A DNA stretch of 39,408 nt from positions 1 to 39,408 of the IMG/VR virus record IMGVR_UViG_3300025093_000005; one strand, written 5' to 3'. Both the position numbers and the translations under genes were made by a program. Shown here in pieces: positions 128 to 39,408 of this stretch (position 1 is its first letter; the number at the start of each line of letters is the position of its first letter). The notes beneath the pieces are model-generated. The model worked only from the letters and a program-made list of their open reading frames with translations. It did no database searches and was not told where the DNA came from. This DNA comes from a virus.

Positions 128-207
128 TAGGGCGACATTACGTTAAATTTGCATACAGCACAGCAACACGTAATGATTATGTAATTGGCAGAGTGGAGGT
201 TAAGTGA
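1..207 (+). CDS. Fiber-tail adaptor-like small protein (3' part)
   Basis: This is the C-terminal two thirds of a 103-residue protein whose start lies at 39180 beyond the circular join; frame 1 is open from base 1. The TTG at 22 is internal and not the true start. The layout resembles the short proteins annotated as phage fiber-tail adaptors: a DWL-GDETI segment, then alternating beta-strand-like residues (FTVTSDTLTV), then a G-RHYVKFAYST segment and a closing V-hydrophobic strand. An Ig-like beta fold is likely. It lies between tailspike-associated genes and the terminase genes, and its TGA (205-207) overlaps the TerS start. Assignment rests on motif layout only; the safe statement is small beta-rich virion protein. 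Confidence 0.5.
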   Translation, partial: VIVDPDWLGDETIDSFTVTSDTLTVTGSNTDNVIQALVTAGAIGRHYVKFAYSTATRNDYVIGRVEVK

Positions 208-566
208 TGGGCGCGGGAAGGCCAACAATAATGACCCCTGAAACTATCCAGAAATTAGAAGATGCTTTCACTTGGGGGTGCAGCGACCTTGAGGCGTGTT
301 GTTATGCCAACATATCAAAGTCAACTCTTTATGATTACTGTGTGGCTAACCCTGAATTTTCGGAGCGAAAAGAAACGCTTAAAAATAATGTGACAATGAA
401 GGCTAAACGCATTATAGACAGAGCGCTTGACGACGATGACATTAACACAGCCCACAAAGTTATTGACCGCAAAGAAGGCACCAAGGTTAAGCAGGATATA
501 ACGTCAGGCGGCCAACCTATAAACAGCTGGACAGTACTTCCGGTATCGAACAACAAAGATGAGTGA
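207..566 (+). CDS. Terminase small subunit
   Basis: DNA-recognition subunit of the packaging motor, which binds the pac site and hands DNA to TerL. The 119-residue protein opens with the GRPT...TPE signature and has an HTH with CSDLEACCYANISKSTLYDY at about residues 25-44, as in HTH-type phage small terminases; the C-terminal half is helical. ATG at 207 is chosen over an in-frame GTG at 204 because it has GGAGG at 195-199 with a 7-nt spacer and forms a TGATG overlap with the upstream stop. TerL begins 8 bp before its end. In headful phages pac often lies inside this gene; no specific site was identified. Confidence 0.85.
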   Translation: MGAGRPTIMTPETIQKLEDAFTWGCSDLEACCYANISKSTLYDYCVANPEFSERKETLKNNVTMKAKRIIDRALDDDDINTAHKVIDRKEGTKVKQDITSGGQPINSWTVLPVSNNKDE

Positions 567-2010
567 AATACAAGTACGCATACCCGAAAAGATAAGCTGG
601 CTGCTATCAAAACCAAAGCGGATTAAGATAGCTGTAGGTGGTCGCGGCTCAGGTAAATCATTAGGTGTTGGCGATATCATGCTAATGCTATGTGACCACG
701 GCGAAAGGATATGCTGTACGCGTGAATTCCAAAACTCCATTGATGACTCAGTACATGAGACGCTAAAGCAAGAGATTGACCGCTTAGGCGTTGGCGGTAT
801 GACTGTCACAAACAACAATATCAATTCATCGTCAGGCGGCGAGATATTCTACAAAGGCTTGGCCCGCAATATTACTTCACTCAAATCATTGGCAGGCGTT
901 AACCGGTTGTGGATTGAAGAGGGTGAAAGCGTATCTGAATCAAGCTTAAAGGTATTGACTCCTTCAGTGCGTAGTGGCGCAAGTCAAGACGGCGACCCGC
1001 CGGAAATCTGGATAACCATGAACCGCAACAGCAGACAAGATGCTATCGCGAAGAAGTATCTTGCAAGGGCTGAAACCGCACTGGCTGAGAAAGGCTATTA
1101 CGAAGACGACCTAATCATGGTCGTTGAGGTTAATTACCAGGATAATCCTTGGTTCCCGCCAGAGCTTGAGCAAGAAAGGCTTGACGACCTTGAAAACCTA
1201 AGCCGTGAAGAATACGACCACATATGGGGCGGTGAGTATAACGAAACCGTCGAGAATGCGATTATCAAGAAAGCATGGTTTGATGCTGCGATTGATGCGC
1301 ATGAGAAGTTAGGATTCAAGGCTAACGGCGCAGTGGTAACGACATTCGACCCCGCTGACGAAGGTAACGATAGTAAAGGTATTGCTGTTCGCAAAGGCAT
1401 GGTTTATCACTACGTTGGTGAGATTGACGCGAAAGACGGTAACGAGGCGTGCGATATTGCCACTCAGAGAGCTATCAACGAAAACACAGACCTGTTTGTG
1501 TGGGATGGTGACGGAATGGGCGCTTTATTGCGTAGACAAGTTGGTGAGGCGTTTGAGGGCATCAAGTGTGACCTTCGCATGTATCGCGGCAGTAACGAGG
1601 TTGACGACAAAGACGCTGTTTACGAAGGCATTAACGCATTAGGCAACAAAGATAAGCCTAAGACTAATCGTGAGACGTTCTACAACAAACGCGCTCAGTA
1701 CTATATGAAGCTGGCTGATAGGTTTTACAAAACGTGGCTGGCAGTCGAGAAAGGCAAGTATATCAACCCGGACGAATTAATCAGCATTTGTAGTGACATA
1801 CCGTTAATTGATAAACTGCGCTCAGAATGTTGTCGCATACCGCGCAAACAAAATCCAACAGGAAAGATTCAGCTAATGTCGAAAGAGGAAATGAAGCGGC
1901 GTTATGACATTGAATCGCCTGGTATGGCAGACTGTTTAGCAATGGGTGAGGAAATGCCAGCAATGCGCGTTGATGACAAAGAACTTGAATTCGAATCTCT
2001 ATGGGATTAA
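559..2010 (+). CDS. terL: Terminase large subunit (ATPase-nuclease)
   Basis: Motor of DNA packaging: an N-terminal ATPase translocates DNA into the prohead and a C-terminal RNase H-fold nuclease cuts the concatemer. At 483 residues it is close to P22 gp2 (about 500). Walker A is GGRGSGKS at 27-34 and Walker B is RLWIEEGE at 116-123. The nuclease acids are seen as D264 (TTFDPAD), D316 (VWDGDG) and D458 (GMADCLAM), the usual three-Asp pattern. It overlaps terS by 8 bp and is followed by the portal gene. Together with the P22-type portal and coat it supports headful packaging. Confidence 0.95.
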   Translation: MSEIQVRIPEKISWLLSKPKRIKIAVGGRGSGKSLGVGDIMLMLCDHGERICCTREFQNSIDDSVHETLKQEIDRLGVGGMTVTNNNINSSSGGEIFYKGLARNITSLKSLAGVNRLWIEEGESVSESSLKVLTPSVRSGASQDGDPPEIWITMNRNSRQDAIAKKYLARAETALAEKGYYEDDLIMVVEVNYQDNPWFPPELEQERLDDLENLSREEYDHIWGGEYNETVENAIIKKAWFDAAIDAHEKLGFKANGAVVTTFDPADEGNDSKGIAVRKGMVYHYVGEIDAKDGNEACDIATQRAINENTDLFVWDGDGMGALLRRQVGEAFEGIKCDLRMYRGSNEVDDKDAVYEGINALGNKDKPKTNRETFYNKRAQYYMKLADRFYKTWLAVEKGKYINPDELISICSDIPLIDKLRSECCRIPRKQNPTGKIQLMSKEEMKRRYDIESPGMADCLAMGEEMPAMRVDDKELEFESLWD

Positions 2011-2014
2011 TCAC

Positions 2015-4180
2015 ATGAAATATGAAAATTTAAAAACCGATTTGAAGAAGTCCCAGGATGCAGATGAGGATTTGCGCGACCATTCAAGGGAGGCAACACA
2101 CTTTGTCAATAAGCGCGACGGGCAATGGGAGCCTGAGATTGTAGCACGCACAAAAGGGCGACCACGCTACACAGACGACAGAGTAAACCCAATCGTTGAC
2201 CAGATATGCGGTGAGATTAACCAGCGTGACTTTGCGCTAACGGTTAAACCCGCTGGCGGTAACGCGTCAAAAGACACGGCCAAGGTACTTGATGGCCTGA
2301 TGCGCAATATTCAAAACATTAGCCGGTTCCAATCGTCGCAGAAAGGCATTGCACGCTCTATCGTCGAGGGCGGCATCGGTGCATTTGAGATTGTGACAGA
2401 CTACGTTGACGGTGACGCATTCGACCAGGATATATTCTGGAAGCCGATTCATGATGCCGTTGACCGCGTATGGATTGACCCTGTTAGTTATGAGCGTGAC
2501 CACAGTGACGCGGACTGGGGTGTTATTTACGAATACATAAGCTTAGAAGAATTCGAGAAGATTGCAGGCGATGACAGAAGCCCGTCAGCAGTTGACAGCA
2601 ACCGGTTAAGCAACGTGTACACGCAAAAGCCCGACTTCATCACAGTTGGGCGCTGCTACTATCGAAAGACATCACCAATCGACATTGTGAGAATGTCTGA
2701 TGGCTCTGTGTATCAGGTTAACGAAGAGTTTGAGTCAATCGTTGACGACTTAGCAGCGGCAGGCATCACCGTTCAGGATACCCGCACACGCAACGCATCA
2801 CGGTTTTATCTGCGTTACTTCGATAATGACGGGTGGCTGAACGAGGAAGAAGAGACCGTTTTCGACTTCCTGCCAATCTGTGTTGGCTATGGTAACTACA
2901 AGGTCAGTGAAGGTAAACGTTTGTGGCGTGGTGTTGTCGAGAAGCTGATGGACATTCAGCGCGTTCACAACTATGCATTCAGCCAGCAGGTTATCGAGAC
3001 GGCACTAGCGCCGCGTCCTAAGTACTGGATGACCAAAGAGCAGGCAGCAGGGAACCTTAAGTCGCTGCAATCAATGAACACCAACCTTGACCCAGTGCAG
3101 ACATACACGCACGTAGCCGGTCAGAACCCGCCGACATACATGGGCGGCTCAATTGTTAACCCTGGACTTCAAACATTAGTAGACCAGACCAACAGCGGCA
3201 TTAATCAGGCGGCTGGATTGTTTGGCGCTAACATGGGTAATAACCCCAATCTGCAATCAGGCGTTGCGCTTGAGAAACAGGTTGACCAAGGCAACAACGG
3301 GATTGATAAATGGTTTGAGGCCATTGAAGCCATGCTGCTGTACGCAGGACGCGTAACAGTTAACGCTATTCCTCGAGTCTACGACAGCACGCGCCAGATT
3401 CGCATATTAGGCGAGGATGGCTCAAGTCAGATGGTTGACATTAACCGTCAGGTTATTGACTCGCAGACCGGCCAGATTGTTACGATTAACGACCTATCAG
3501 TGGGCGAATACGACGTAGTGTGCGAAATCGGCCAGAATTACCGCAGCAAACGCGAGCAGGCAGCGGAAGAGTTTGCACGTATCGCACAGGTTGACCCTGC
3601 TGTTATGGAGTTTGGCCGAGACGTATGGTTTAGGAATCTTGATGCACCTGGATTCGATGATTTGGCAGACCGCGCACGACAGGCAATGCTTAACCAAGGC
3701 TTAATCCCACAAGACCAAATGAGTGAGGAAGAGTTAGCGCAGGCGCAGGCAGCGGCGCAGGCCAATCAAAACAAACCTGACCCAGCCATGCTGTTGGCGC
3801 AGGCTGAAATGACCAAGGCTCAGGCTGATATGCTAGGCGAGCAGAACAAACAAGCAGAGCTACAGTTAAGAGCGGCAGACATTCAGGCTAAATACCAATC
3901 GCAGAATGACAAGCTTCAATCTGAAACAGCGCTTAACTTTGCTAAAGTCGAGCAGGGCCAGCAACAGATTGACCTGCAAGCGCAGCAGCAAGCAGCACAG
4001 CAGCAACTTGAGATGATGCGTATGATGTTAGAGCAGCAGAAAGCGCAGGCTCAGGAAGTGGCACAATTGGCAAGTGCGCTGAAGTCGATAAAGGAGGCGA
4101 TGGGCGCAGATGTTGTAGTAAATGAAAGTGCGGCTAAGGCTTACGACGAAACCGCACAGGATATAACAGGGGCTAGTTAG
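2015..4180 (+). CDS. Portal protein, P22 type
   Basis: Dodecameric ring at the unique capsid vertex, the docking site for terminase and later for the tail. The 721-residue length matches P22 gp1 (725). Recognisable P22-portal segments are the opening RDHSREATHFV, GRPRYTDDRVNPIVDQ and the QRVHNYAFSQ region. The last ~150 residues are rich in Q and A and coiled-coil-like, as expected for the long helical barrel of the P22 family. The ATG at 2015 is chosen over an upstream in-frame start at 1946 that lies inside terL; the ribosome site is weak, so coupling to terL is likely. The stop lies inside a hairpin shared with the convergent gene. Confidence 0.93.
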   Translation: MKYENLKTDLKKSQDADEDLRDHSREATHFVNKRDGQWEPEIVARTKGRPRYTDDRVNPIVDQICGEINQRDFALTVKPAGGNASKDTAKVLDGLMRNIQNISRFQSSQKGIARSIVEGGIGAFEIVTDYVDGDAFDQDIFWKPIHDAVDRVWIDPVSYERDHSDADWGVIYEYISLEEFEKIAGDDRSPSAVDSNRLSNVYTQKPDFITVGRCYYRKTSPIDIVRMSDGSVYQVNEEFESIVDDLAAAGITVQDTRTRNASRFYLRYFDNDGWLNEEEETVFDFLPICVGYGNYKVSEGKRLWRGVVEKLMDIQRVHNYAFSQQVIETALAPRPKYWMTKEQAAGNLKSLQSMNTNLDPVQTYTHVAGQNPPTYMGGSIVNPGLQTLVDQTNSGINQAAGLFGANMGNNPNLQSGVALEKQVDQGNNGIDKWFEAIEAMLLYAGRVTVNAIPRVYDSTRQIRILGEDGSSQMVDINRQVIDSQTGQIVTINDLSVGEYDVVCEIGQNYRSKREQAAEEFARIAQVDPAVMEFGRDVWFRNLDAPGFDDLADRARQAMLNQGLIPQDQMSEEELAQAQAAAQANQNKPDPAMLLAQAEMTKAQADMLGEQNKQAELQLRAADIQAKYQSQNDKLQSETALNFAKVEQGQQQIDLQAQQQAAQQQLEMMRMMLEQQKAQAQEVAQLASALKSIKEAMGADVVVNESAAKAYDETAQDITGAS

Positions 4181-4193
4181 GCCCCTTTATTTT
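4169..4193. terminator. Hairpin terminator between convergent genes
   Basis: GGGGC (4169-4173) and GCCCC (4181-4185) flank a 7-nt loop, followed on the plus strand by TTTATTTT. It contains the portal stop codon and the stop of the minus-strand gene at 4177. On the minus strand the stem lacks a clean T tract, so it should act mainly on plus-strand transcription leaving the portal gene. Confidence 0.65.
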
Positions 4194-4410
4194 GCAACAA
4201 GCCAACATCACTCAATTCGTTGATAACAGCCCTCACCGCATCTTCGCCGACTTTATCGATTAACTCTGTCAAAGCATCTTCATTGCCGTTTTCGATAGCG
4301 CTAAGAACCATTCGCGATAGCTCGATAGTGCTATCAATCATATTCTCTTTAATCGCCGCAATGTCTAACTGGCTGCATTCTACAGCGGTTGATAGTTTGG
4401 ATTTTTTCAT
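4177..4410 (-). CDS. Hypothetical protein, last gene of inverted cassette
   Basis: A 77-residue acidic, mostly helical protein (SAIENGNEDALTELIDKV) of no family I recognise. Its ATG overlaps the upstream stop (ATGA) and has AAGGG seven bases before it, so it is translated and coupled to the gene at 4407-4613. Its stop lies in the terminator hairpin shared with the portal gene. It is the last of five minus-strand genes inserted between portal and scaffold, so a structural role is unlikely. Confidence 0.7.
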   Translation of the reverse strand: MKKSKLSTAVECSQLDIAAIKENMIDSTIELSRMVLSAIENGNEDALTELIDKVGEDAVRAVINELSDVGLLQNKGA

Positions 4411-4613
4411 TTCATAACCCTTATAAATTCAACCAACTCAACACTGTCAATAGAAATTAAATTGCTACCATATGTTGATTTCAGCGACTCAATTACATCG
4501 GTAACTCTTTCGCCTTCCTTATACACCGCCTTTTCTGATAAAGACTTATAATCGCTTTCGTGGCCTTTCACTGTTACGGTAGTTTTATAAACTGGATTTT
4601 TAAATGCAAACAT
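4407..4613 (-). CDS. Hypothetical protein
   Basis: A 68-residue protein of unknown function, starting MFAFKNPVYK and ending in a hydrophobic VELVEFIRVMK segment. The ATG at 4613 is preferred to an upstream in-frame start because AAGGAG lies six bases before it. There is a short gap (4614-4665) to the upstream gene, the only one in the cassette. Alternating polar and hydrophobic residues suggest a small alpha/beta domain. No motif gives a role. Confidence 0.7.
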   Translation of the reverse strand: MFAFKNPVYKTTVTVKGHESDYKSLSEKAVYKEGERVTDVIESLKSTYGSNLISIDSVELVEFIRVMK

Positions 4614-4665
4614 ATTTCGCTCCTTATTTTTAAATTCACACAATAACTTTAGCGTTTGGATTTTT

Positions 4666-4914
4666 TCAATCTAAAACCTCGATAATTACAGTTCTTTTAA
4701 CCTTAACAACATCACCTTTGCAAACCTCTTTTACGTAGTGGCTACCAGGCCATGTAAAGTCTAGCGGAAGCATTACGTACCTTTGGTCGCGTAATTCTGC
4801 GTTATGTATGTCGCCGAAACCAAATTCTTTACTACGCCCATCATCGTAGGTTTCTTGCCAAGCTTTCCCATCTTTAACAAGCATTACGCCAGTTTCTTCT
4901 TTTATGTATTTCAC
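4666..4914 (-). CDS. Hypothetical protein
   Basis: An 82-residue protein with a GTG start at 4914, supported by GAGGGG upstream and a GTGA overlap with the previous gene's stop. The C-terminal third (KGDVVKVKRTVIIEVL) looks like a small beta-barrel, and a central segment is rich in D, G and aromatics. I do not recognise the family. It is the middle gene of the inverted cassette and is expected to share the promoter at 5448-5476. Confidence 0.7.
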   Translation of the reverse strand: MKYIKEETGVMLVKDGKAWQETYDDGRSKEFGFGDIHNAELRDQRYVMLPLDFTWPGSHYVKEVCKGDVVKVKRTVIIEVLD

Positions 4915-5072
4915 TTCATCCCCTCAATCATCTTGGTTAATTTATCGTGTAGCTTTTCATTTGCGCAGTAGTTGTCGTATGTGCGACGCGTAATGCCCCA
5001 ATAGTCTAAAAAATCCTGCACCTTGTAGCCCTTCGCGTGAATCTTTCTCGTGTGTTGGTTTGGTTTGCTCAT
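4911..5072 (-). CDS. Small HTH-like protein
   Basis: A 53-residue basic protein with the layout KVQDFLDYWGITRRTYDNY, resembling the two helices of a DNA-binding helix-turn-helix. The ATG at 5072 overlaps the upstream stop (ATGA), and its TGA overlaps the GTG of the next gene. It could be the cassette's own regulator or a short repressor of neighbouring late genes. The HTH is inferred by eye only. Confidence 0.6.
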   Translation of the reverse strand: MSKPNQHTRKIHAKGYKVQDFLDYWGITRRTYDNYCANEKLHDKLTKMIEGMK

Positions 5073-5413
5073 CTAAAGGACGCTCCAGGCATGCCAGCCA
5101 AACTTCCTAAGCCAGCTAGAACGCCAGGACAGCCTTGCGGCCTGCCAGTTAAAGCGGCATTCTGAAATGCTGATAATTGATTATTATGCATTGCAAGGCC
5201 AGTACTCTGACTAACATTAACCTTTGCTTTTTTAGCCTCTAGCAACTCAAGTATCGCATCATCATCATTGCAATACATTTCCATTATCCGAAGTTTTAAC
5301 TTTAACTCCGCATTCTCTTTCTCCAGCCGCTCCATTGCGTCTATCTGCTCCCTGTATTTATCGATCAATTCAGACTGCCTTTTTATTTCCGCTTTCAATT
5401 TACCGTTAAACAT
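5069..5413 (-). CDS. Coiled-coil protein, first gene of inverted cassette
   Basis: A 114-residue protein whose first ~65 residues form a clear coiled coil (IKRQSELIDKYREQIDAMER, with heptad-spaced I/L/M). The rest is Gly/Pro/Ala-rich and probably flexible, ending GMPGASFR. AAGGA precedes the ATG at 5413. It is the promoter-proximal gene, about 35 bases below the -10 of the minus promoter at 5448-5476. Function unknown; it might oligomerise or bind a host protein. Confidence 0.7.
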   Translation of the reverse strand: MFNGKLKAEIKRQSELIDKYREQIDAMERLEKENAELKLKLRIMEMYCNDDDAILELLEAKKAKVNVSQSTGLAMHNNQLSAFQNAALTGRPQGCPGVLAGLGSLAGMPGASFR

Positions 5414-5447
5414 TGTAAATCCTTCATATGAAAATATTACATAAACA

Positions 5448-5476
5448 GTATTACACCCAATTCAATATAATGTCAA
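5448..5476 (-). promoter_or_regulatory. Sigma70-like promoter of the inverted cassette
   Basis: On the minus strand, a consensus TTGACA (-35, 5476-5471) is followed after 17 bp by TAATAC (5453-5448). It points at the five-gene cassette. A plus-strand TATAAT (5466-5471) overlaps the -35 box and could help transcribe scaffold and coat, but I find no matching plus-strand -35. Confidence 0.6.
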
Positions 5477-5527
5477 CAACAGTACGCGACTGTATCGCGG
5501 GTTTGCATACCGTAATGGGGTTACAAC

Positions 5528-6349
5528 ATGAGTGAGCTAGAAAACGAAATCGAAAACGAAGTTATGGACGACCAAGTTGAAGAGGTCGAAGAGGTTGAAT
5601 CTGAACAAGATGAGCCGTCCGATTTAGCACCGGATAGTGAAACGGAACACGAAGAAAATGCCGAGGAAGATGAACACCGCGTCAATCAGGAAAAGATTCA
5701 GCAGGTTATCAATAAAAAACATCGTGAGATGATGGAAGCGAAAGAAGAGGCTGAGCGCTTACGCAAACAGTTGGAGCAATTCAACTCACAGCAGAAGCAA
5801 GGTGAGGCCCCTGAAATCCTTCCGGCACCTGACCCGTTTGATGATGACTATGATTCGAAGATTAAAGCGCGAGATGAATCTATCCAGCGCCGCGCTCAGT
5901 GGGAAGCTGAAAACGCACAGCGACAGCAAGCACAGCAGCGGCAGCAAGAAGAACTGCAACGCGCTCAGGTCGAGCAAGTGCGTTCACAGATGGAGTCATA
6001 TACCGCAAAGGCCAAGTCTTACGGTATTACCAATGAAGAGTTGCAATCAGCGGCCAATATCGTTGGTCAGTCTGGTTTAAGCGATGATATTGCGTTGGCT
6101 ATTCTCGCAGATGAGGAAGGCCCGTTAATTACAAAGTATCTCGCAGCAAACCAGCTTGAAGCATACGAGATTGCGCAGATGGCACCGATTCAGGCGGCTC
6201 AATATCTGGAGCGCAAAGTGAGACCTAAGTTAGCTGCATTGAAACCAAAACAATCCAGCGCACCTAAGCCACCAACGCGTACAAAACAGGTTGTTGGTGA
6301 CGCAGAGCTTGGCAAGTACAAGCACCTGGGCGGCGCTAAATTTGAATAA
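5528..6349 (+). CDS. Scaffolding protein
   Basis: Internal chaperone that guides coat assembly into a prohead and then leaves. The 273-residue protein is very acidic in its first 55 residues (EVEEVESEQDEP), coiled-coil and Q/E-rich through about 56-160, and ends basic (KVRPKLAALKPKQ), the usual scaffold pattern with a basic coat-binding C-terminus. Its place directly before the coat gene matches P22 gp8. Homology is by position and composition, since scaffolds diverge quickly. The gene is cut off from portal by the inverted cassette, so it may need read-through or its own promoter. Confidence 0.85.
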   Translation: MSELENEIENEVMDDQVEEVEEVESEQDEPSDLAPDSETEHEENAEEDEHRVNQEKIQQVINKKHREMMEAKEEAERLRKQLEQFNSQQKQGEAPEILPAPDPFDDDYDSKIKARDESIQRRAQWEAENAQRQQAQQRQQEELQRAQVEQVRSQMESYTAKAKSYGITNEELQSAANIVGQSGLSDDIALAILADEEGPLITKYLAANQLEAYEIAQMAPIQAAQYLERKVRPKLAALKPKQSSAPKPPTRTKQVVGDAELGKYKHLGGAKFE

Positions 6350-7642: not shown

Positions 7643-7666
7643 GGGCGGCTCCGGCTGCCCTTTTTT
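7643..7666 (+). terminator. Rho-independent terminator after coat gene
   Basis: GGGCGGC (7643-7649) pairs with GCTGCCC (7654-7660), with one G-T wobble, around a TCCG loop and followed by six T. It begins 13 bases after the coat stop. Partial read-through must feed the tail genes unless late transcription is antiterminated. Confidence 0.85.
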
Positions 7667-33207: not shown

Positions 33208-33378
33208 ATGAAACCCTACCAAATCAAACTGACCTACAAAGGCAAGCAATACCAATTCGCCATGCTATCCGACACCGACGACATCGAGCAGAGTTTGCGG
33301 GAACGGTTTCCAGGGTGTGAGTGTGATGTGGTAGGACCAGATGATAAAACACAAAAAAGTGTTGACAAACAAAAATGA
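33208..33378 (+). CDS. 56-residue hypothetical protein
   Basis: First gene of the rightward early block: MKPYQIKLTYKGKQYQFAML and 36 more residues, a beta-rich first half then an acidic, Lys-rich tail. ATG at 33208 is chosen over an earlier in-frame start at 33190. No strong ribosome site is visible. The strong promoter at 33362-33389 lies in its last codons. Confidence 0.55.
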   Translation: MKPYQIKLTYKGKQYQFAMLSDTDDIEQSLRERFPGCECDVVGPDDKTQKSVDKQK

Positions 33379-33389
33379 GTAGGTATACT
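33362..33389 (+). promoter_or_regulatory. Strong sigma70-like promoter
   Basis: TTGACA (33362-33367), 16 bp, TATACT (33384-33389): the best plus-strand promoter in the window. Start predicted near 33396, just before GAGGAG (33404-33409) and the ATG at 33419. It should drive the rightward early genes. Confidence 0.8.
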
Positions 33390-33418
33390 TGAATCATCAA
33401 CTAGAGGAGATGAGCGAA

Positions 33419-33598
33419 ATGACTACACTGAATGACTTGTTTAACGACATCAAAGAAGAGTTTTCTGATTTTGAAGGTTCTGCACCAAAGCGTGAAGAAA
33501 AGAAATCTTCTTTCATCGAACAATGGTACGGATCATCGATTGGCGCTTCAGTTGAGCGCGATTATAAATCTGGCAATGTAAAACACGTTAAAGCGTAA
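33419..33598 (+). CDS. 59-residue acidic hypothetical protein
   Basis: MTTLNDLFNDIKEEFSDFEG then a Lys/Glu stretch and a C-terminal WYGSSIGASVERDY. ATG at 33419 is best: GAGGAG nine bases before; ATG at 33410 is too close to it, and 33389 would fall in the promoter. First gene after the strong promoter, so probably abundant early in infection. No recognised family; early abundant small acidic proteins often inhibit host enzymes. Confidence 0.7.
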   Translation: MTTLNDLFNDIKEEFSDFEGSAPKREEKKSSFIEQWYGSSIGASVERDYKSGNVKHVKA

Positions 33599-33607
33599 GG
33601 GCGTATT

Positions 33608-33808
33608 ATGTTTTTTGATATTTTATACAGCCACGGAAAGACGGCAGACGAAGCAGCAACGGCGTTAATAAGAAACGTCGAAAAGCGCACAAACGTATAC
33701 TCACGCATTGTTACTTATGTTGGCCGAAATGCTAACGGCGGCGCTATTGAATATCGTTGCACCGATATGGGAAACGGCAAGTTTAAATTTGTAAGGGATT
33801 CGCTATGA
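33608..33808 (+). CDS. 66-residue hypothetical protein
   Basis: MFFDILYSHGKTADEAATAL followed by basic beta segments (RIVTYVGRNANGG, YRCTDMGNGKFKF). AAGGGCG precedes the ATG. The TADEAATALIRNVEKR helix and beta sheet suggest a small ferredoxin-like or dsRBD-like fold. The stop overlaps the next ATG (ATGA). No family named. Confidence 0.65.
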   Translation: MFFDILYSHGKTADEAATALIRNVEKRTNVYSRIVTYVGRNANGGAIEYRCTDMGNGKFKFVRDSL

Positions 33809-34056
33809 GTCCCTTTTCTCGCGCGTGGGTAAAAGTAAACAAGAAGACATGGCGAAATACTGTAAGTGGTTTCGTTATATGTAATGAAAGCTACCAAAGC
33901 ATAAATGGTAGATGGCAAAAGTCTTATTGCGTGTACATGACCGCTAAAGCCCAAGATGCAGGAGAAGTAATTTCTATTCAAGATGGTTTTTACAAGGCTA
34001 GGGCGAAAGCGAATGCTATTTTTGATAAACTAAGGAGTCAAGCAAGTGGAAGATAA
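33805..34056 (+). CDS. 83-residue basic hypothetical protein
   Basis: A basic protein (WVKVNKKTWRN, KARAKANAIFDKLRSQASG) with a beta-strand middle (GFVICNESYQSI, YCVYMTAKA). Coupled to the previous gene (ATGA). It may bind nucleic acid, but no motif shows this. It overlaps the next gene by 11 bp. Confidence 0.65.
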   Translation: MSPFSRAWVKVNKKTWRNTVSGFVICNESYQSINGRWQKSYCVYMTAKAQDAGEVISIQDGFYKARAKANAIFDKLRSQASGR

Positions 34057-34297
34057 ATACAAGTACAGCGGAATCAATGATTGCTTTGGGAATGAAATAA
34101 AGGCCGGAGACACTATAAGGGCTGGCGAAGACTCTTTCTTTGGCGAGGTCTATTATTCGGCTTGTGACGCAGCATTCAAAGTGAAGGTTGTAAAAGCGGA
34201 TACGGGATTGGAGCTTAAAAGCTTTTACACTCTGCCTAAATTCATTAAGCAGAGGGAGCGGGCAACTGGTTCTTTAATAAGCGTGGTGGCACTATGA
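34046..34297 (+). CDS. YopX-like small beta protein
   Basis: An 83-residue protein with GTG start at 34046 (AAGGAG upstream). YSGINDCFGNEIKAGDTIRAG then GEVYYSACDAAFKVKVV resembles the YopX pattern (D-GxEIxxGD...GxVxY). Such domains are common in phage early regions with no set function. ATGA overlap with the next gene. Confidence 0.65.
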   Translation: MEDKYKYSGINDCFGNEIKAGDTIRAGEDSFFGEVYYSACDAAFKVKVVKADTGLELKSFYTLPKFIKQRERATGSLISVVAL

Positions 34298-34512
34298 AAC
34301 CACTATCACAACACATCAAACAAACCTACGGCAGCGTATATCGCGCAGTAAAAGAAACTGGTATAGCTGACACGCAATTGCGCCGCTGGATTAAAGCAGG
34401 CGCATTAATCGACAAAGACGGCCAAGTATGGATTAAGTCAAAAGGGCGGTTGCCTGTAAACGGCGAGCAGGTTCTATCTGTTCGGTTAGAGAAAATGGAG
34501 GAAGGGAAATGA
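34294..34512 (+). CDS. Small HTH protein, Cro-like
   Basis: A 72-residue protein. HIKQTYGSVYRAVKETGIAD followed by TQLRRWIKAGALIDKDGQVW fits a helix-turn-helix in which TQLRRWI is the recognition helix and the DGQVWIKSKG segment a hairpin. It is a candidate regulator of the dyad promoters or of late genes. It overlaps the next gene by 4 bp. Confidence 0.7.
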   Translation: MKPLSQHIKQTYGSVYRAVKETGIADTQLRRWIKAGALIDKDGQVWIKSKGRLPVNGEQVLSVRLEKMEEGK

Positions 34513-35264
34513 AAGACGGCAAATACAAGCTAATTGATGAATATGACCATACGGTAGTTGTAGTAAGTAACGGAGAGGCCGTATGCGTCGAAGCAGAAGG
34601 CGAATCAGGATGGTCGGTTGGCGATGTCGAGCCTGTAAGCGAATTGGAAATCAGCGAATGGGTCAGCATAGAATCCCAACTACAACCACGCAAGACGGTG
34701 AGTGCGCATGATTGCGTATTGTCTGGCAATAAAGTTGTTGGCATAAATGAAGGTACACAAGCAGAAGGCAATGGCGTGACTGACGATACGGAAGCTGTTC
34801 AAGCAATGCTGGATAAGTCACAACCACGCAAGACGGTGAGTGATGCGGTTGATTATTTTGATGGAGTTTGGCCTGATGATGCCCTTGGCGTTATTTGTTT
34901 TGATGATGAGTATGGATGGCGCTGTTGGAAGGCTAACTGGATTGGATACCAAAAGTTCTACCAAGTATGCACCCGAGAAGAATTCGAGGCAGAGGTAGAG
35001 CGGAGGAAGGGTGAAGAGGTGTTCAGGCTTATCGGAAGCTCAGATTTAGTCAAAGTTGTTTACGAAGGTCGGGATGGCATTGTGTGTGTTGCTAATGAGG
35101 ATAACGATATTTTTGTTGCCAAGAAAGAGGATTTAAGAAAACGCAAGCCAATTATCAGCAAGGCTGAGGCTGACGCAGTAAAAGCTTTTTTCAGTTGGGC
35201 GGAAAAAAGACCGTGCGTAGTGTTGCGGGTTGATGATTATTTAGAACAGTTTGAGGTGAAGTGA
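34509..35264 (+). CDS. 251-residue hypothetical protein with duplicated segment
   Basis: Largest gene of the rightward block. Acidic N-terminal part, then a QPRKTVS segment occurring twice (about residues 59-65 and 105-111) because of a 23-bp direct repeat. A GDGVTD-like GNGVTDDTEAVQAML stretch echoes tailspike beta-helix starts but is too short to be one. The C-terminal half has CTREEFEAEVERRKGEEVFR, common in phage proteins of unknown role, and ends in a helix and acidic strand. ATGA overlap with upstream gene. Function not recognised; it looks composite. Confidence 0.7.
   Translation: MKDGKYKLIDEYDHTVVVVSNGEAVCVEAEGESGWSVGDVEPVSELEISEWVSIESQLQPRKTVSAHDCVLSGNKVVGINEGTQAEGNGVTDDTEAVQAMLDKSQPRKTVSDAVDYFDGVWPDDALGVICFDDEYGWRCWKANWIGYQKFYQVCTREEFEAEVERRKGEEVFRLIGSSDLVKVVYEGRDGIVCVANEDNDIFVAKKEDLRKRKPIISKAEADAVKAFFSWAEKRPCVVLRVDDYLEQFEVK
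34682..34842. repeat. 23-bp direct repeat inside one gene
   Basis: The 23-mer starting ACAACCACGCAAGACGG occurs at 34682-34704 and 34820-34842, 138 bp apart and in frame, encoding QPRKTVS both times. Recombination between copies would delete 46 residues without a frameshift. Confidence 0.9.
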
Positions 35265-35452
35265 TGAAGGTAAGAGTGACGGCAACGGAAATAATTAGAT
35301 ATTCAAAAGTGGTTGACATGACAGAGGATGAATTCGACGAGTTTCAAAATGACCTAGAAGACTTTGGTACAGATATTGTCGGAGACATGATGAGTAAAGG
35401 TGATATTCAAGACGGCGAATGGGAAGATGTTGAAGCTTGGCGTGACGACTAA
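35264..35452 (+). CDS. 62-residue acidic hypothetical protein
   Basis: MKVRVTATEIIRYSKVVDMT with a strongly acidic rest (EDEFDEFQNDLEDFGTD). ATG at 35264 has GAGGTG six bases before it; GTG at 35261 also possible. A highly acidic surface suggests DNA mimicry or binding of a basic partner, but this is inference. Its TAA joins directly to the dyad of promoter copy 3. Confidence 0.65.
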   Translation: MKVRVTATEIIRYSKVVDMTEDEFDEFQNDLEDFGTDIVGDMMSKGDIQDGEWEDVEAWRDD

Positions 35453-35489
35453 CTGGTCAAACCACAAAACAAAATTAACCCGTTATAAT
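35453..35489 (+). promoter_or_regulatory. Promoter with TGGTCAAACCA dyad (copy 3)
   Basis: CTGGTCAAACCAC (35453-35465), 18 bp, perfect TATAAT (35484-35489). Start predicted near 35496, just before GGAGGG and the ATG at 35515. With copies at 23460 and 24920 it forms a set with identical geometry. The 17 bases TAACTGGTCAAACCACA match copy 1 exactly, including the stop codon of the upstream gene. Confidence 0.75.
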
Positions 35490-35514
35490 GGGTGAAACTA
35501 ATGGAGGGAAGCAA

Positions 35515-35724
35515 ATGAAAATACCGTACAAGTTTTACAATACAAAGAAAGCAGGTGAGTCGCACCCAGTGGCCGAGAATGGCGGCGAACTTAAAAGATT
35601 ACTGGAAGAACTGCCGGACGATTTGCCGCTGGATTCTGGGTTCGAGATTGGAATGACGCTTGTTGTTTTTAATCACGGGTGTTCAGATATGGCTTTATCT
35701 TTCGAAGACCCAGACTGGAATTAG
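35515..35724 (+). CDS. 69-residue hypothetical protein
   Basis: MKIPYKFYNTKKAGESHPVA, then GGELKRLLEELPDDLPL and a beta-like FEIGMTLVVFNHG. ATG at 35515 is chosen on GGAGGG upstream; the earlier in-frame ATG at 35488 overlaps the -10 box and cannot be on the transcript. The ELKRLLEELPDDLPL segment recurs in phage proteins of unknown role. First gene of the dyad promoter copy 3. Confidence 0.7.
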   Translation: MKIPYKFYNTKKAGESHPVAENGGELKRLLEELPDDLPLDSGFEIGMTLVVFNHGCSDMALSFEDPDWN

Positions 35725-35734
35725 GAGTGCGGCA

Positions 35735-36115
35735 ATGAATCTCGAACAACACCAAACCGCATACGACAGACAGCTACCAGGCGAGCCAGAATCAACGCCA
35801 CTGACTTATGACAGTATCAGTAATGATAACCTGTGGTATATCGCCGAGAAGCTGGCAGAGCGTGTCGCAGATGGTAAAAACTTGTCATGGGGTTATCGTC
35901 GGTCATTTATCACGTCTAATCACGTTCAAACCGCGCTGGCAGAAGATTACGACACGATGTTTGAGCTAACACGCCTTACCATCGAATCTGACGCTAACGA
36001 GGCGCAGAAGTACCTGCTGGCTAAGTGGGATGAAAAGGCAAAGGATATGATTTACGATGCTATCGGCGAAGAAATGGCAATGCCGGTTGGTTATGATTGG
36101 GGGGATTTTTTGTGA
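35735..36115 (+). CDS. 126-residue helical hypothetical protein
   Basis: All-helical protein (NLWYIAEKLAERVADGK, NEAQKYLLAKWDEKAKDM) ending YDWGDFL. GGAG lies eight bases before the ATG at 35735. The stop overlaps the GTG of the next gene. No family recognised. Placed in the dyad-promoter transcript just before two HTH-like genes. Confidence 0.65.
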   Translation: MNLEQHQTAYDRQLPGEPESTPLTYDSISNDNLWYIAEKLAERVADGKNLSWGYRRSFITSNHVQTALAEDYDTMFELTRLTIESDANEAQKYLLAKWDEKAKDMIYDAIGEEMAMPVGYDWGDFL

Positions 36116-36276
36116 ACAAACATTACCGCAAAATAACAAAGGCTTTGCAATTCAAGCCGAAAACAATCCAGGGTGTAGCGAAGTTGTCTGGACTTCGCGG
36201 TCCTGATGTTACTTATCAGATGTTCAATCATCCAGAGCTTATGCGCAAATATGCAGAGAATGGGGGTAGGGTATGA
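36112..36276 (+). CDS. 54-residue HTH-like protein
   Basis: A GTG-started ORF (GTGA overlap) coding MNKHYRKITKALQFKPKTIQ, then GVAKLSGLRGPDVTYQMFNH. The TIQGVAKLSGL-GPDVTYQMF part fits a helix-turn-helix. It overlaps the next ATG (ATGA). Too short for the usual 60-residue cut-off but supported by couplings on both sides. Confidence 0.6.
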   Translation: MNKHYRKITKALQFKPKTIQGVAKLSGLRGPDVTYQMFNHPELMRKYAENGGRV

Positions 36277-36461
36277 AGCGCTACGGCACAATAGCCCCTG
36301 CAATCATCGCAGAGGCGAAAACGGGTAAACACCGCACGGTGCTGTCACTATCCAATGCGGTAGGCTGTCACCCGCAATACGCGTATCGTGTGGTAAATGA
36401 CAATATCGAGGCATTTACAGCGATACATAAGGCAAAGAAGAGTTGGAGGGCGAGGAAATGA
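36273..36461 (+). CDS. 62-residue basic HTH-like protein
   Basis: MKRYGTIAPAIIAEAKTGKH, then VLSLSNAVGCHPQYAYRVVN, a likely helix-turn-helix with QYAYRVV as recognition helix, and a basic end (KKSWRARK). With the previous gene it makes a pair of small DNA-binding candidates right before the late promoter. A late-gene regulator is an attractive but unproven idea. Confidence 0.65.
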   Translation: MKRYGTIAPAIIAEAKTGKHRTVLSLSNAVGCHPQYAYRVVNDNIEAFTAIHKAKKSWRARK

Positions 36462-36628
36462 ACGAATTCTATTACACATACATGGTAGTCACATTCGCCG
36501 GTATATCCTGGGCATCGCTTGAACTTGCATGGGGTGAATATATCGAGCAGACGAAAGGCAATGTTGCTGCGGCGTGTTTTGGATGGGCCGTGTGGCTGTT
36601 TATGCTTGGGTGGGGGTTGTGGTCGTGA
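36458..36628 (+). CDS. 56-residue membrane protein, two TM
   Basis: MNEFYYTYMVVTFAGISWAS with a first hydrophobic stretch (residues ~5-22) and a second near the C-terminus (AACFGWAVWLFMLGWGLW). Trp/Tyr-rich. ATG at 36458 has GGAGGG and GAGGA upstream and overlaps the previous stop. A small early or middle membrane protein; a holin-like or exclusion role is possible. Confidence 0.65.
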   Translation: MNEFYYTYMVVTFAGISWASLELAWGEYIEQTKGNVAAACFGWAVWLFMLGWGLWS

Positions 36629-36804
36629 ACTACCGCGCATCTACAACAATCAGCGGTAAGGAGTATACGTGTGACATATTCGACGCTCGCAATCTCCAGG
36701 AAGCCGAGCACGCATTTCAACAATGGATGTACAGCGAATACGAACTGGACTTTATGCAGTTGCCGGTAGGCGTTAGCTATCAGCCGTTAGTGGTTAATGA
36801 TTGA
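36625..36804 (+). CDS. 59-residue hypothetical protein
   Basis: GTG at 36625 overlaps the upstream stop (GTGA). MNYRASTTISGKEYTCDIFD, then helix AEHAFQQWMYSEYEL, then a beta end (VGVSYQPLVVN). The layout is that of small phage proteins with a ferredoxin-like helix-strand order. The ORF can be read longer upstream from 36574 but would overlap the membrane gene. Its stop lies inside the -35 of the late promoter. Confidence 0.6.
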   Translation: MNYRASTTISGKEYTCDIFDARNLQEAEHAFQQWMYSEYELDFMQLPVGVSYQPLVVND

Positions 36805-36829
36805 CACCACAAAGCTAAACAGCTATGGT
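36801..36829 (+). promoter_or_regulatory. Candidate late promoter
   Basis: TTGACA (36801-36806), 17 bp, TATGGT (36824-36829). Predicted start near 36836. An intrinsic terminator follows within 45 bases (36855-36880), the arrangement of lambda pR'/tR', where an antiterminator lets transcription run into the late genes. Confidence 0.65.
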
Positions 36830-36854
36830 GAAGACTGATTTGTCCCCTCCAGTT

Positions 36855-36880
36855 GCCCTGTTATCCGCAGGGCTTTTTTT
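36855..36880 (+). terminator. Rho-independent terminator before late operon
   Basis: GCCCTG (36855-36860), 7-nt loop, CAGGGC (36868-36873), then seven T. Ends the rightward early transcript and the short transcript from the promoter at 36801. A possible -10 (TAGAAT, 36896-36901) follows but has no good -35. Confidence 0.85.
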
Positions 36881-36928
36881 GTTGTGTCAAGTGCTGTAGA
36901 ATGAATTATCACCAATGAGGGCAGCGCA

Positions 36929-38947
36929 ATGGCATTCGACAAGGCATATTTAAAACTCAAAAAGAACAATCCGCGAGGCATTCCAGACGAATATACGTAC
37001 TGGGGTAGAGACGACACAATCGCAGAAATCACAGCGACTGGTTATTTTGACGAATCCGCATTTGCTCCAAAGGAAGACCCGCGCCGAAATCTAACAGACC
37101 CACCCGACACCGACGCTTATGCTATTCACGTTCAAGCCTCCGACGGCCCATACGAGGTGCAGTTGGTTGGGGGTGTGGCTAGTGTTGTTTCTGGAAGCCC
37201 TATAGAATTAAGCGCCAACTCGGTAGGAGCAAGGCCGCAAGCAGGCTTTGATAATGCTGATGCTATTGAGTTGGCTGCAAGTCGCATTAAAGAAGGCAAG
37301 ATTACTTTTGATTCCGGAGAGTACGAGATTCATCGAACGATTTATATCCCTGTTGGAGTGTGGTTAGAAGGGAAAAGCGGCAGTAGAGGCTTTGATGATG
37401 ATGCTAACGCCACTGTTTTCAAGTCCGTAGTTGGCGGCTCATACGTTGAGGATTTCCTTTTCTTTATGAATATAGACCCAGATGGTGATACTACCACTTG
37501 GGTTAAGCAGTTTCCCAACAATGACTCTGGCGGCGCCATGCACGTCCATATTGACGGCACCGCTACAGGCGGCATCCATGGATTTAAGTTTGGCGGATCT
37601 CACGTGTTTAGGCATATCACGGCAACGAAAATCGGCTCTATAATAAGAAAACCTTCCGGCCTGTATACTGACAAGCTTGAGATTAGCCAAATACATGCAA
37701 TAGAACGCTCCGACGATACGAGTTGGTTTATAGATTTACCAGGTCTTGGCGATGGCTACATAATCTCCAACATTGCCCCAGCTTATCTCAACCTTGATGG
37801 TACAGGGATAACAAATGGTGTTAATTTAGGGGCTTGCAGAAGCGGCCAGTTGATCAATCTCATAAACGGTCGGCACATGATAAATGGCGCAAAATCTGTC
37901 GAGGTTGTCGGGTGTCACATAGAGGGCGGTAATTTCACTTTCAAAGACTGCTCTGCACACATTCGTGATGGTATCATGTTTTGCGAAGAGGATGTTGATG
38001 GGCAAATTATCACTGACAGCGATAATGGCACATTCGGCAACAGATATACGCTTAAAATCAGCAATATGATTTTTGACCAGTCCATGAATAGACGTGGCGG
38101 CTTTCAGGCCACAGCACGCCCTGATGTTGTGTGCAGTCAATATTTTGACATTCAGATAGTTGACTGCAAGAGGAAAATAACCGACAGCAGCAATGTAGCA
38201 ATGCAGCAATACACAGGCATATTGTGCGGTACTGATACTACTACGATGCTTGATGATTTTAATAATTATTCTCACGTTCTTAGTAGAAAATGCAACATAA
38301 ACGGTCAGCGAGTAAATAAAACTTTTGATATTGTTAGTCAGTTTCGAACGTTTGGCGGCATCACTGGAGTAACTGAGGCTGTTGACTCTGCAACGTACCA
38401 AGGCCCTACTGGTACTTATTATTATCAAGGGCAAATACTTCAAGATCCAATTCGCATGATGGGGCGCGGGGCTACGCTAGGCGAGGTCTCGTTGGCTCTT
38501 ACAAATGGCAGCGATTTGGCTAAATTATCGATAGGCTGGAATCTTGTAGAGAACAAAACAGATGTAATCTTGAGGGTATACAAGGGCGTCTCAACTGGCT
38601 CATACAATCAGTACGTAGATATACCACTACTAAATGCTTCTTTTTTCTATGACGATGGCAATGCCATAAATGGGTACGTCTGGAAATCCAGAACAGCCTC
38701 TGGAGTATCTTCACTGAATGGCGGCATCAATGGCGCAATAAGGTCTCTCGATGGCGTCATAACATCATTTACAGATGGAGCTAACGCAACCGTAGGAACT
38801 TGGTCTAAAGGTGACTTGTTGATTAAACGGAATCCTACGCTAGGTGGTGGCGGCACTACTTTTAATGCTAGATTCCTCAGATTAACCGACGGCTCTGCGC
38901 ATGTAAAAAACACAGATTGGCTGTTTCAGCAGGATACGCAGGGATAA
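36929..38947 (+). CDS. Second tailspike, pectate-lyase-like beta-helix
   Basis: A 672-residue protein. The first ~90 residues hold YWGRDDTIAEITATGYFDES and DAYAIHVQASDGPYEVQLV, a module typical of phage structural proteins and probably the virion anchor. From about 100, FDNADAIELAASRIKEGKIT leads into a right-handed beta-helix (GVWLEGKSG, repeated N/G-rich coils) to about 480. The rest is beta-rich, ending in a receptor or trimer domain. Likely depolymerises or binds a surface sugar. First gene of the late operon; GAGGG lies before the ATG. Confidence 0.8.
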   Translation: MAFDKAYLKLKKNNPRGIPDEYTYWGRDDTIAEITATGYFDESAFAPKEDPRRNLTDPPDTDAYAIHVQASDGPYEVQLVGGVASVVSGSPIELSANSVGARPQAGFDNADAIELAASRIKEGKITFDSGEYEIHRTIYIPVGVWLEGKSGSRGFDDDANATVFKSVVGGSYVEDFLFFMNIDPDGDTTTWVKQFPNNDSGGAMHVHIDGTATGGIHGFKFGGSHVFRHITATKIGSIIRKPSGLYTDKLEISQIHAIERSDDTSWFIDLPGLGDGYIISNIAPAYLNLDGTGITNGVNLGACRSGQLINLINGRHMINGAKSVEVVGCHIEGGNFTFKDCSAHIRDGIMFCEEDVDGQIITDSDNGTFGNRYTLKISNMIFDQSMNRRGGFQATARPDVVCSQYFDIQIVDCKRKITDSSNVAMQQYTGILCGTDTTTMLDDFNNYSHVLSRKCNINGQRVNKTFDIVSQFRTFGGITGVTEAVDSATYQGPTGTYYYQGQILQDPIRMMGRGATLGEVSLALTNGSDLAKLSIGWNLVENKTDVILRVYKGVSTGSYNQYVDIPLLNASFFYDDGNAINGYVWKSRTASGVSSLNGGINGAIRSLDGVITSFTDGANATVGTWSKGDLLIKRNPTLGGGGTTFNARFLRLTDGSAHVKNTDWLFQQDTQG

Positions 38948-39192: not shown

Positions 39193-39408
39193 ACATAAAT
39201 ATTGATACTGTGCTATACAGTAAAGACGGGAACGGAAACTTTATTCGGCCTTTGTATGCTAGCACTACTGATTTATATTCGGTTATTGTTGACCCTGATT
39301 GGTTGGGTGATGAAACAATTGATTCGTTTACTGTTACGTCTGATACGTTGACGGTAACAGGTAGTAACACTGATAACGTTATTCAGGCGCTTGTTACAGC
39401 AGGCGCAA
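39180..39408 (+). CDS. Fiber-tail adaptor-like small protein (5' part)
   Basis: The N-terminal part of the 103-residue protein completed at 1-207: MADLNINIDTVLYSKDGNGN, then PLYASTTDLYSVIVDPDWLG. ATG at 39180 overlaps the preceding gene by 13 bp. The frame continues unbroken through the circular join (39281/1). See the entry at 1-207 for the family case. Confidence 0.55.
   Translation, partial: MADLNINIDTVLYSKDGNGNFIRPLYASTTDLYSVIVDPDWLGDETIDSFTVTSDTLTVTGSNTDNVIQALVTAGA
39282..39408. repeat. Right copy of 127-bp terminal overlap
   Basis: Identical to 1-127. Removing one copy gives a circle of 39,281 bp with an intact gene over the join. Confidence 0.95.

Follow-up and report, generated by a model that had tools for sequence, protein, structure and literature searches.

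A promoter element (P1) that is followed after 25 nt by an intrinsic terminator (t) lies between the early and the late genes of the phage of record IMGVR_UViG_3300025093_000005. Sequence comparison identifies this P1-t pair as a real, evolutionarily kept early/late junction of marine (Alteromonadales-type) phages. Very probably, the late genes are switched on at this junction. The single most likely reading is that it works like pR'-tR', by readthrough of the terminator, and we hold this reading tentatively, at a little below an even chance. To our knowledge, few phages other than the enteric ones have had their late-gene control worked out. In the present case, a single small cassette lies at the early/late border in front of unrelated late modules, in isolated Alteromonas and Pseudoalteromonas phages as well as in metagenomic relatives. 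A late switch of this kind, which would operate without a known antiterminator, is directly testable in these phages, with two proteins named as candidates and a choice of two start sites.

The window, that is, the whole stretch of DNA that was analysed (39,408 nt), begins and ends with the same 127 bp (1-127 and 39282-39408). Because of these identical ends, we take it to be a complete genome of ~39,281 bp, which is circularly closed or circularly permuted. An end overlap of 117-127 bp is also found in several relatives. The phage has P22-like structural genes, and its nearest isolate by portal protein is Pseudoalteromonas phage vB_PspP-H6/1 (hereafter H6/1; 77% portal identity). Replication and recombination genes form a leftward block, and small genes make up a rightward operon, which runs from the probable promoter at 33362 to 36804 (Table 1). 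The late genes are ordered tail gene (36929-38947), small gene, join, small terminase, large terminase and portal; since the 127-bp repeat connects the ends, the late operon continues across the circular join. This bears out the first-pass annotation, which had placed the late operon directly behind the promoter and terminator. A PHROG search with the product of the tail gene gave no match.

In the window, the last early gene ends with a stop codon (36802-36804) that lies within the -35 of P1. Folded as RNA, t has an energy of -12.3 kcal/mol (z = -3.3), and equally stable shuffles were not obtained (0/200). Promoter-like matches in this region are at chance level (14 observed, 14.7 in shuffles). 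A promoter with at least 10/12 matches and a strong terminator within ~70 nt occur together once in the window, and such a pair was found in 2 of 300 simulated windows (first-order Markov copies). By a position-weight model, P1 ranks among the best 0.1% when compared with random 70-nt stretches drawn from these genomes (p = 0.001). If transcription starts 7 nt after the -10, the hairpin would begin at about +20 in the window and at +33 to +41 in most relatives, and the predicted leader of ~40-60 nt agrees with the short leader RNA proposed in the first-pass annotation. A 13-nt inverted repeat that flanks P1 and t (36801-36813 and 36878-36890) is absent in the relatives and was dismissed as a coincidence.

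The last early gene and the terminator were used as queries, and these searches yielded sequences closely related to each other, here called class 1, which comprise the window and at least five distinct phages: A (G022), B (G025), C (G024), D (G027) and E (an end of G026). P1 is present in all of them as TTGACA, 17 nt and TATGGT (TATGTT in C), and it is the best promoter at this place in a position-weight scan (p 0.001-0.002). Compared with the window, the other members of class 1 have 4 changes in the 17-nt spacer but 0-1 in the 12 hexamer positions. The stem and loop of t, together with the 11 nt before them, are identical in all class-1 phages, and a 30-nt stretch (CCCCTCCAGTTGCCCTGTTATCCGCAGGGC) is invariant; between P1 and this stretch, a 13-nt insertion or deletion separates the class-1 phages. 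The downstream genes diverge completely: the window, D and E have tail genes, and A, B and C each have a terminase-type gene of a different kind. In phage E, the upstream gene is ~48% identical to those of the others, and the shared DNA begins exactly at TTGACA. As judged from these alignments, this is the behaviour of a control cassette at a module border. The promoter and the hairpin with seven T that the first-pass annotation described are present as it stated, and the strongest support for them comes from this comparison, since at least five other phages with unrelated downstream genes retain them.

Some contigs of this class show further features. Two different junction-bearing phages in the same orientation are found in G023 (73,523 bp; B plus A) and in G026 (67,220 bp; B plus E), which are either tandem prophages or chimeric assemblies. 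In G025, extra genes are inserted just before the last early gene, after the membrane-protein gene, and one of them resembles a DNA methyltransferase (DGLSCGQIALNRIGI..GGSPCQGFSFAGKQ).

A second class of phages has another leader at the junction. In G001, which is closest to the window by terminase (88%), a homologue of the last early gene precedes a different leader (ACTTTCACAATCTCCCT) and a hairpin with T8. Alteromonas phages PB15 and XX1924 and IMG/VR relatives have this leader in the corresponding position (class 2). The class-2 stems vary in sequence with pairing kept (GCCCGT/ACGGGC, GCCTGC/GCAGGC, GCCTGT/ACAGGC and GGCCG/CGGCC). In a position-weight scan, the best promoter is at the same site in XX1924 and L161 (p 0.005) and in L166 and L171 (p 0.03); the promoter at the P1 site is weak in G001 and PB15 (p 0.14-0.18). 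Class-2 P1 lies inside the end of a coding region, and codon constraint may be an alternative explanation for it. A putative boxA in class 2 (CTCCCTTTAA) was rejected, as it is not kept in XX1924 or class 1. In H6/1, TTAACT-18-TATAAT (p 0.009) and then a T8 hairpin lie between gp55 and gp56, almost without a leader; the hairpin would start near +4, too near the start for H6/1 to be counted as clean support for P1. A terminator scan of the more distant P22-like relatives G002-G007 and G017 gave no clear copy of the junction, and a literature search found nothing on transcription of H6/1 or PB15.

Table 1. Features of the window that bear on the early/late junction and on late transcription (positions in the window).
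Feature	Positions	Strand	Remarks
Terminase small subunit	204-566	+	phrog_4102, E 7e-17
Terminase large subunit	559-2010	+	phrog_3717, E 1e-41
Hairpin at portal gene end	4169-4193	+	Convergent gene end; portal meets leftward gene
Promoter-like TAAACA-18-TATAAT before scaffold gene	5442-5471	+	Aligned -10s TATAAT/TATCAT/TACAAT in window, H6/1 and G001
Terminator after coat gene	7643-7666	+	Conserved in H6/1 and G001
Probable early-operon promoter, TTGACA-16-TATACT	33362-33389	+	11/12 consensus matches
62-aa HTH-like protein, candidate trans factor	36273-36461	+	AF2 pLDDT 84.6, all-helical
56-aa hydrophobic (membrane) protein, perhaps holin-like	36458-36628	+	Conserved in class 1
Last early gene, 59 aa, GTG start	36625-36804	+	Candidate RNAP-binding factor
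P1 promoter, TTGACA-17-TATGGT	36801-36829	+	-35 at 36801-36806, -10 at 36824-36829; 10/12 consensus matches
Direct repeat AAAGCT/ACAGCT, 8 bp apart	36811-36824	+	Between -35 and -10; possible factor-binding site
Predicted leader RNA before hairpin	36836-36854	+	CCCCTCCAGTT invariant in class 1
Intrinsic terminator t: 7-bp stem, 5-nt loop, T7	36855-36880	+	GCCCTGT-TATCC-GCAGGGC at 36855-36873
P2, -10-like TAGAAT	36897-36902	+	23 nt after T-tract start; no -35
First late gene, 672 aa, tail/tailspike-like	36929-38947	+	N-terminus common to first late genes of D and E

In the mechanism that we favour, P1 would be recognised by the sigma70 of the host and be active as soon as infection begins. Polymerase from P1 would make a leader of ~45 nt (~58 nt in most siblings) and stop at t, which would also end the early operon from 33362. 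As an early protein accumulates, polymerase that started at P1 would be modified, read through t and transcribe the tail, terminase and portal genes; the candidates for this protein are the products of 36625-36804 and 36273-36461. Several lines of evidence argue for terminator readthrough. The P1-t pair is the only one of its kind in the window and is rarely produced in simulation. At least four kinds of downstream genes are found behind the conserved cassette, which is what one would expect of a switch for the late operon, and the identity in phage E from TTGACA onward, the invariance of t in class 1 and the retained pairing in class 2 point in the same direction. A consensus-like promoter that only feeds a terminator ~20-40 nt on makes little sense unless readthrough is controlled or the short RNA itself has a function. 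The hairpin positions resemble the targets of AlpA, whose promoters have terminators at +54 and +26 (PMC7969949), and the direct repeat in the window resembles, in its 8-bp spacing, the Q binding element (QBE) of phage 21 (PMC6606751).

Other observations weaken the readthrough reading. Q proteins depend on a binding site within the promoter and on a -10-like pause element (PMC6606751), and AlpA also requires a pause element (PMC9371919). No pause element (at least 4/6) was seen in the initially transcribed region of the window or C, but real ones may be degenerate; AATCAT is found near +6 in A, B, D and E, and CACAAT near +18 to +22 in class 2. The repeat in the spacer of the window has C at -21 and -13, and the siblings retain parts of it only, so that the full repeat is lost. 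The weak P1 of G001 and PB15, the codon constraint that may account for class-2 P1 and the H6/1 hairpin, which is very close for a leader, also count against it. Known Q families are absent, as the first-pass annotation had remarked: PF03589 and PF06530 gave no hit over cut-off in 11 phage records, and the control E. coli genome was positive. The two candidate proteins, of 62 and 59 aa, are smaller than Q and AlpA. Of the Q-type layout proposed in the first-pass annotation, the tandem at the early/late junction holds and is conserved as a cassette; the pause element was not seen in the window, and P2 offers another start for late RNA.

P2 competes directly with antitermination, as a possible alternative start site. 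The main rival explanation is that t is an insulator, which ends the early operon and stray RNA from P1, and that late transcription starts at P2, where a phage activator would be needed because P2 has no -35. Of 15 junctions, 14 have a hexamer that agrees with TATAAT at 5/6 positions and begins 21-23 nt from the beginning of the T tract (chance of such a hexamer at that place, 0.022 per junction), and these hexamers fall into three separate classes, TAGAAT, TATATT and TATACT. Its context is conserved (AAAGCGTATACT in class 2, AGCGTATACT in H6/1), and the downstream block common to the window, D and E begins at CTGTAGAAT, i.e., at the -10 of P2. The terminator and P2 are the most constant elements across the classes, which is consistent with insulation by t and a start at P2. 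On the other hand, when scored as a full sigma70 promoter, P2 stays within background in 13 of the 14 junctions that were scanned (p 0.05-0.5; the p of 0.036 for L159, with which the equally long contig PAPM01000040, L182, was counted as one record, belongs to another site), and it is poor as such a promoter because the T tract occupies the place of the -35. In addition, no activator is known, P1 is left unexplained, and G018 has the terminator but lacks P2. It was considered unlikely that the class-2 leader contains a DNA site for an activator of P2, as the spacing to P2 varies by 6 bp. From its conservation, P2 is possibly a factor-dependent late promoter, or it may serve another purpose. 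We regard insulation by t with a late start at P2 as a serious possibility, somewhat less likely than readthrough.

The RNA that ends at t may also have a function of its own. In this explanation, P1 and t would form a small-RNA gene, the C-rich single-stranded stretch of the short terminated RNA (CCCCUCC in class 1, CUCCC in class 2) would pair with ribosome-binding sites, and readthrough would be incidental. The leader segment adjacent to the hairpin is the most conserved part of the RNA, whereas the hairpin sequence in class 2 and the leader length in class 1 vary, and the T tract gives a strong Rho-independent end. However, the predicted targets are generic Shine-Dalgarno sites that are inconsistent between siblings, and an Rfam search gave no match. 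We consider a small-RNA gene distinctly unlikely. It is even less probable that continual transcription from P1 as far as t keeps polymerase over P2 and thereby blocks it, and that a repressor of P1 (e.g., the HTH-like product of 36273-36461) frees P2 with no antitermination; the -10 elements of P1 and P2 are ~73 bp apart and the T tract lies in the -35 position of P2, but the P1-P2 spacing varies among phages and the argument is purely structural. That the promoter hexamers arose by chance and only the early-operon terminator is real is very improbable as well: promoter-like matches are as frequent as in shuffles and P1 is weak in G001 and PB15, but the P1 hexamers are kept while the spacer changes, the shared DNA of phage E begins at P1, and P1 itself is exceptional in the position-weight model.

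If terminator readthrough operates, its factor may be encoded by the small genes upstream of the junction. Among the candidates named in the first-pass annotation, 36273 alone is nearly invariant; 36112 is a poor one, with 57% identity in A and B although both have the cassette, and 34294 is divergent and far upstream. The product of 36273-36461 is 95-100% identical in four class-1 siblings (E is cut off by the contig end), with 0-4 amino-acid against 5-13 synonymous changes relative to the window. This pattern of substitutions indicates that the gene is under purifying selection. Its family is absent from class-2 phages, and a product confined to class 1 would fit a factor specific for the class-1 site. 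No relatives of this gene were found in GTDB genomes or annotated phages, and fold searches with the 62-aa protein gave weak, generic HTH matches, with no Q or AlpA among the matches listed. Antitermination profiles from Pfam, NCBIfam and PHROG had no match to the small genes.

The gene 36625-36804, which was not mentioned in the first-pass annotation, is always next to the junction except in H6/1; its family is present in 12 of 13 upstream regions. The AF2 model of its product (pLDDT 83.6) has a beta-beta-alpha-beta fold. In a Foldseek search of the PDB, T7 Gp2 bound to RNA polymerase of E. coli ranked first (E 0.034, prob 0.97), ahead of LX-type ribosomal proteins of archaea and of YkzG, which interacts with RNAP, and VIA-align prefers eL20 (Z ~8, 57 residues, 1.6-1.7 A). 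Sequence searches gave no support for a relationship with Gp2, and the resemblance of the predicted fold is a weak lead only. It may be that this product of 59-60 aa, which accompanies several late-gene types, is a novel RNA-polymerase-binding late regulator with a Gp2-like fold, which would load on polymerase at the adjacent P1-terminator-P2 and switch on the late genes, as an antitermination or promoter-switch system without a known Q; we think this unlikely. At the position of 36458-36628, class 2 and H6/1 also have short membrane proteins, and that of H6/1 is annotated as 'putative class 2 holin'. Farther upstream, the gene at 34509-35264 belongs to a mosaic family with a QPRKTVSDAV-type motif that is present in almost all phages of the group (11 upstream regions), and its H6/1 member, gp46, is annotated as 'putative transcription termination/antitermination protein'. 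It was not chosen as the preferred factor, as it is mosaic and has no profile support.

The first-pass annotation had also taken two terminators inside the late unit, after portal and after coat, as support for antitermination. The one after coat is real and conserved. The portal hairpin lies at a convergent gene end; it is conserved in H6/1 and G001, and the T tract is absent in both. As support for antitermination the two say little, since the T tract at portal is not conserved and the scaffold-coat genes have their own upstream promoter-like region. Four small leftward genes lie between portal and scaffold (4177-5413), as they also do in H6/1 (gp05-gp08). The stretch at 5480-5532 before scaffold (GTACGCGAC..TCGCGGGTTTGCATACCGTAATGGGGTTACAACATGAGT) is near-identical in the window, H6/1 and G001, its 5' untranslated part included; on alignment, this is strong noncoding conservation. 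Because leftward genes fill the portal-scaffold gap and a conserved stretch bearing a -10 precedes scaffold, the late genes need not form one unit. Another hairpin, with a T-rich tail, overlaps the start codon of gene 33805 (33796-33824; GGGATTCG-CTA-TGAGTCCC), and its counterpart near the start of H6/1 gp42 (AGGCTTCA-CTA-TGAAGCCT) has compensatory changes. Translational or transcriptional control by this hairpin is possible.

Several known systems can be compared with the junction. T7 Gp2, an inhibitor that binds the beta' jaw of RNA polymerase, weakly resembles the product of 36625-36804 in predicted fold; no sequence similarity to Gp2 was found, and eL20/LX ribosomal proteins match the product as well or better. 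GafZ is a further example of antitermination (PMC11150451); in the Caulobacter GTA cluster, as here, a late-type structural cluster lies behind a terminator, which the antiterminator overcomes there. That terminator follows the first gene, whereas t precedes the whole late operon. At the alpB and PA0807 promoters of Pseudomonas aeruginosa, where AlpA acts, the terminator lies 26 or 54 nt downstream, compared with ~20-41 nt here, and a small DNA-binding candidate is likewise encoded nearby. Q and AlpA carry a nozzle segment plus an HTH. The 62-aa HTH candidate is too short for the AlpA nozzle segment, and no AlpA-binding element was identified at the junction. The lambdoid pR'-tR' systems with Q (lambda, 21 and 82) differ from the junction in that here no Q homologue and no clear pause element were found, the repeat is not conserved, an extra conserved -10 follows the terminator, and no integrase (PF00589) was found in the phage records searched. 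What they have in common with it is the arrangement itself: a strong host promoter where the early region ends, a short leader, an intrinsic terminator and then the late genes; in the window, the repeat between -35 and -10, a possible factor-binding site, resembles the phage 21 QBE in its 8-bp spacing and its C at -21 and -13 (PMC6606751).
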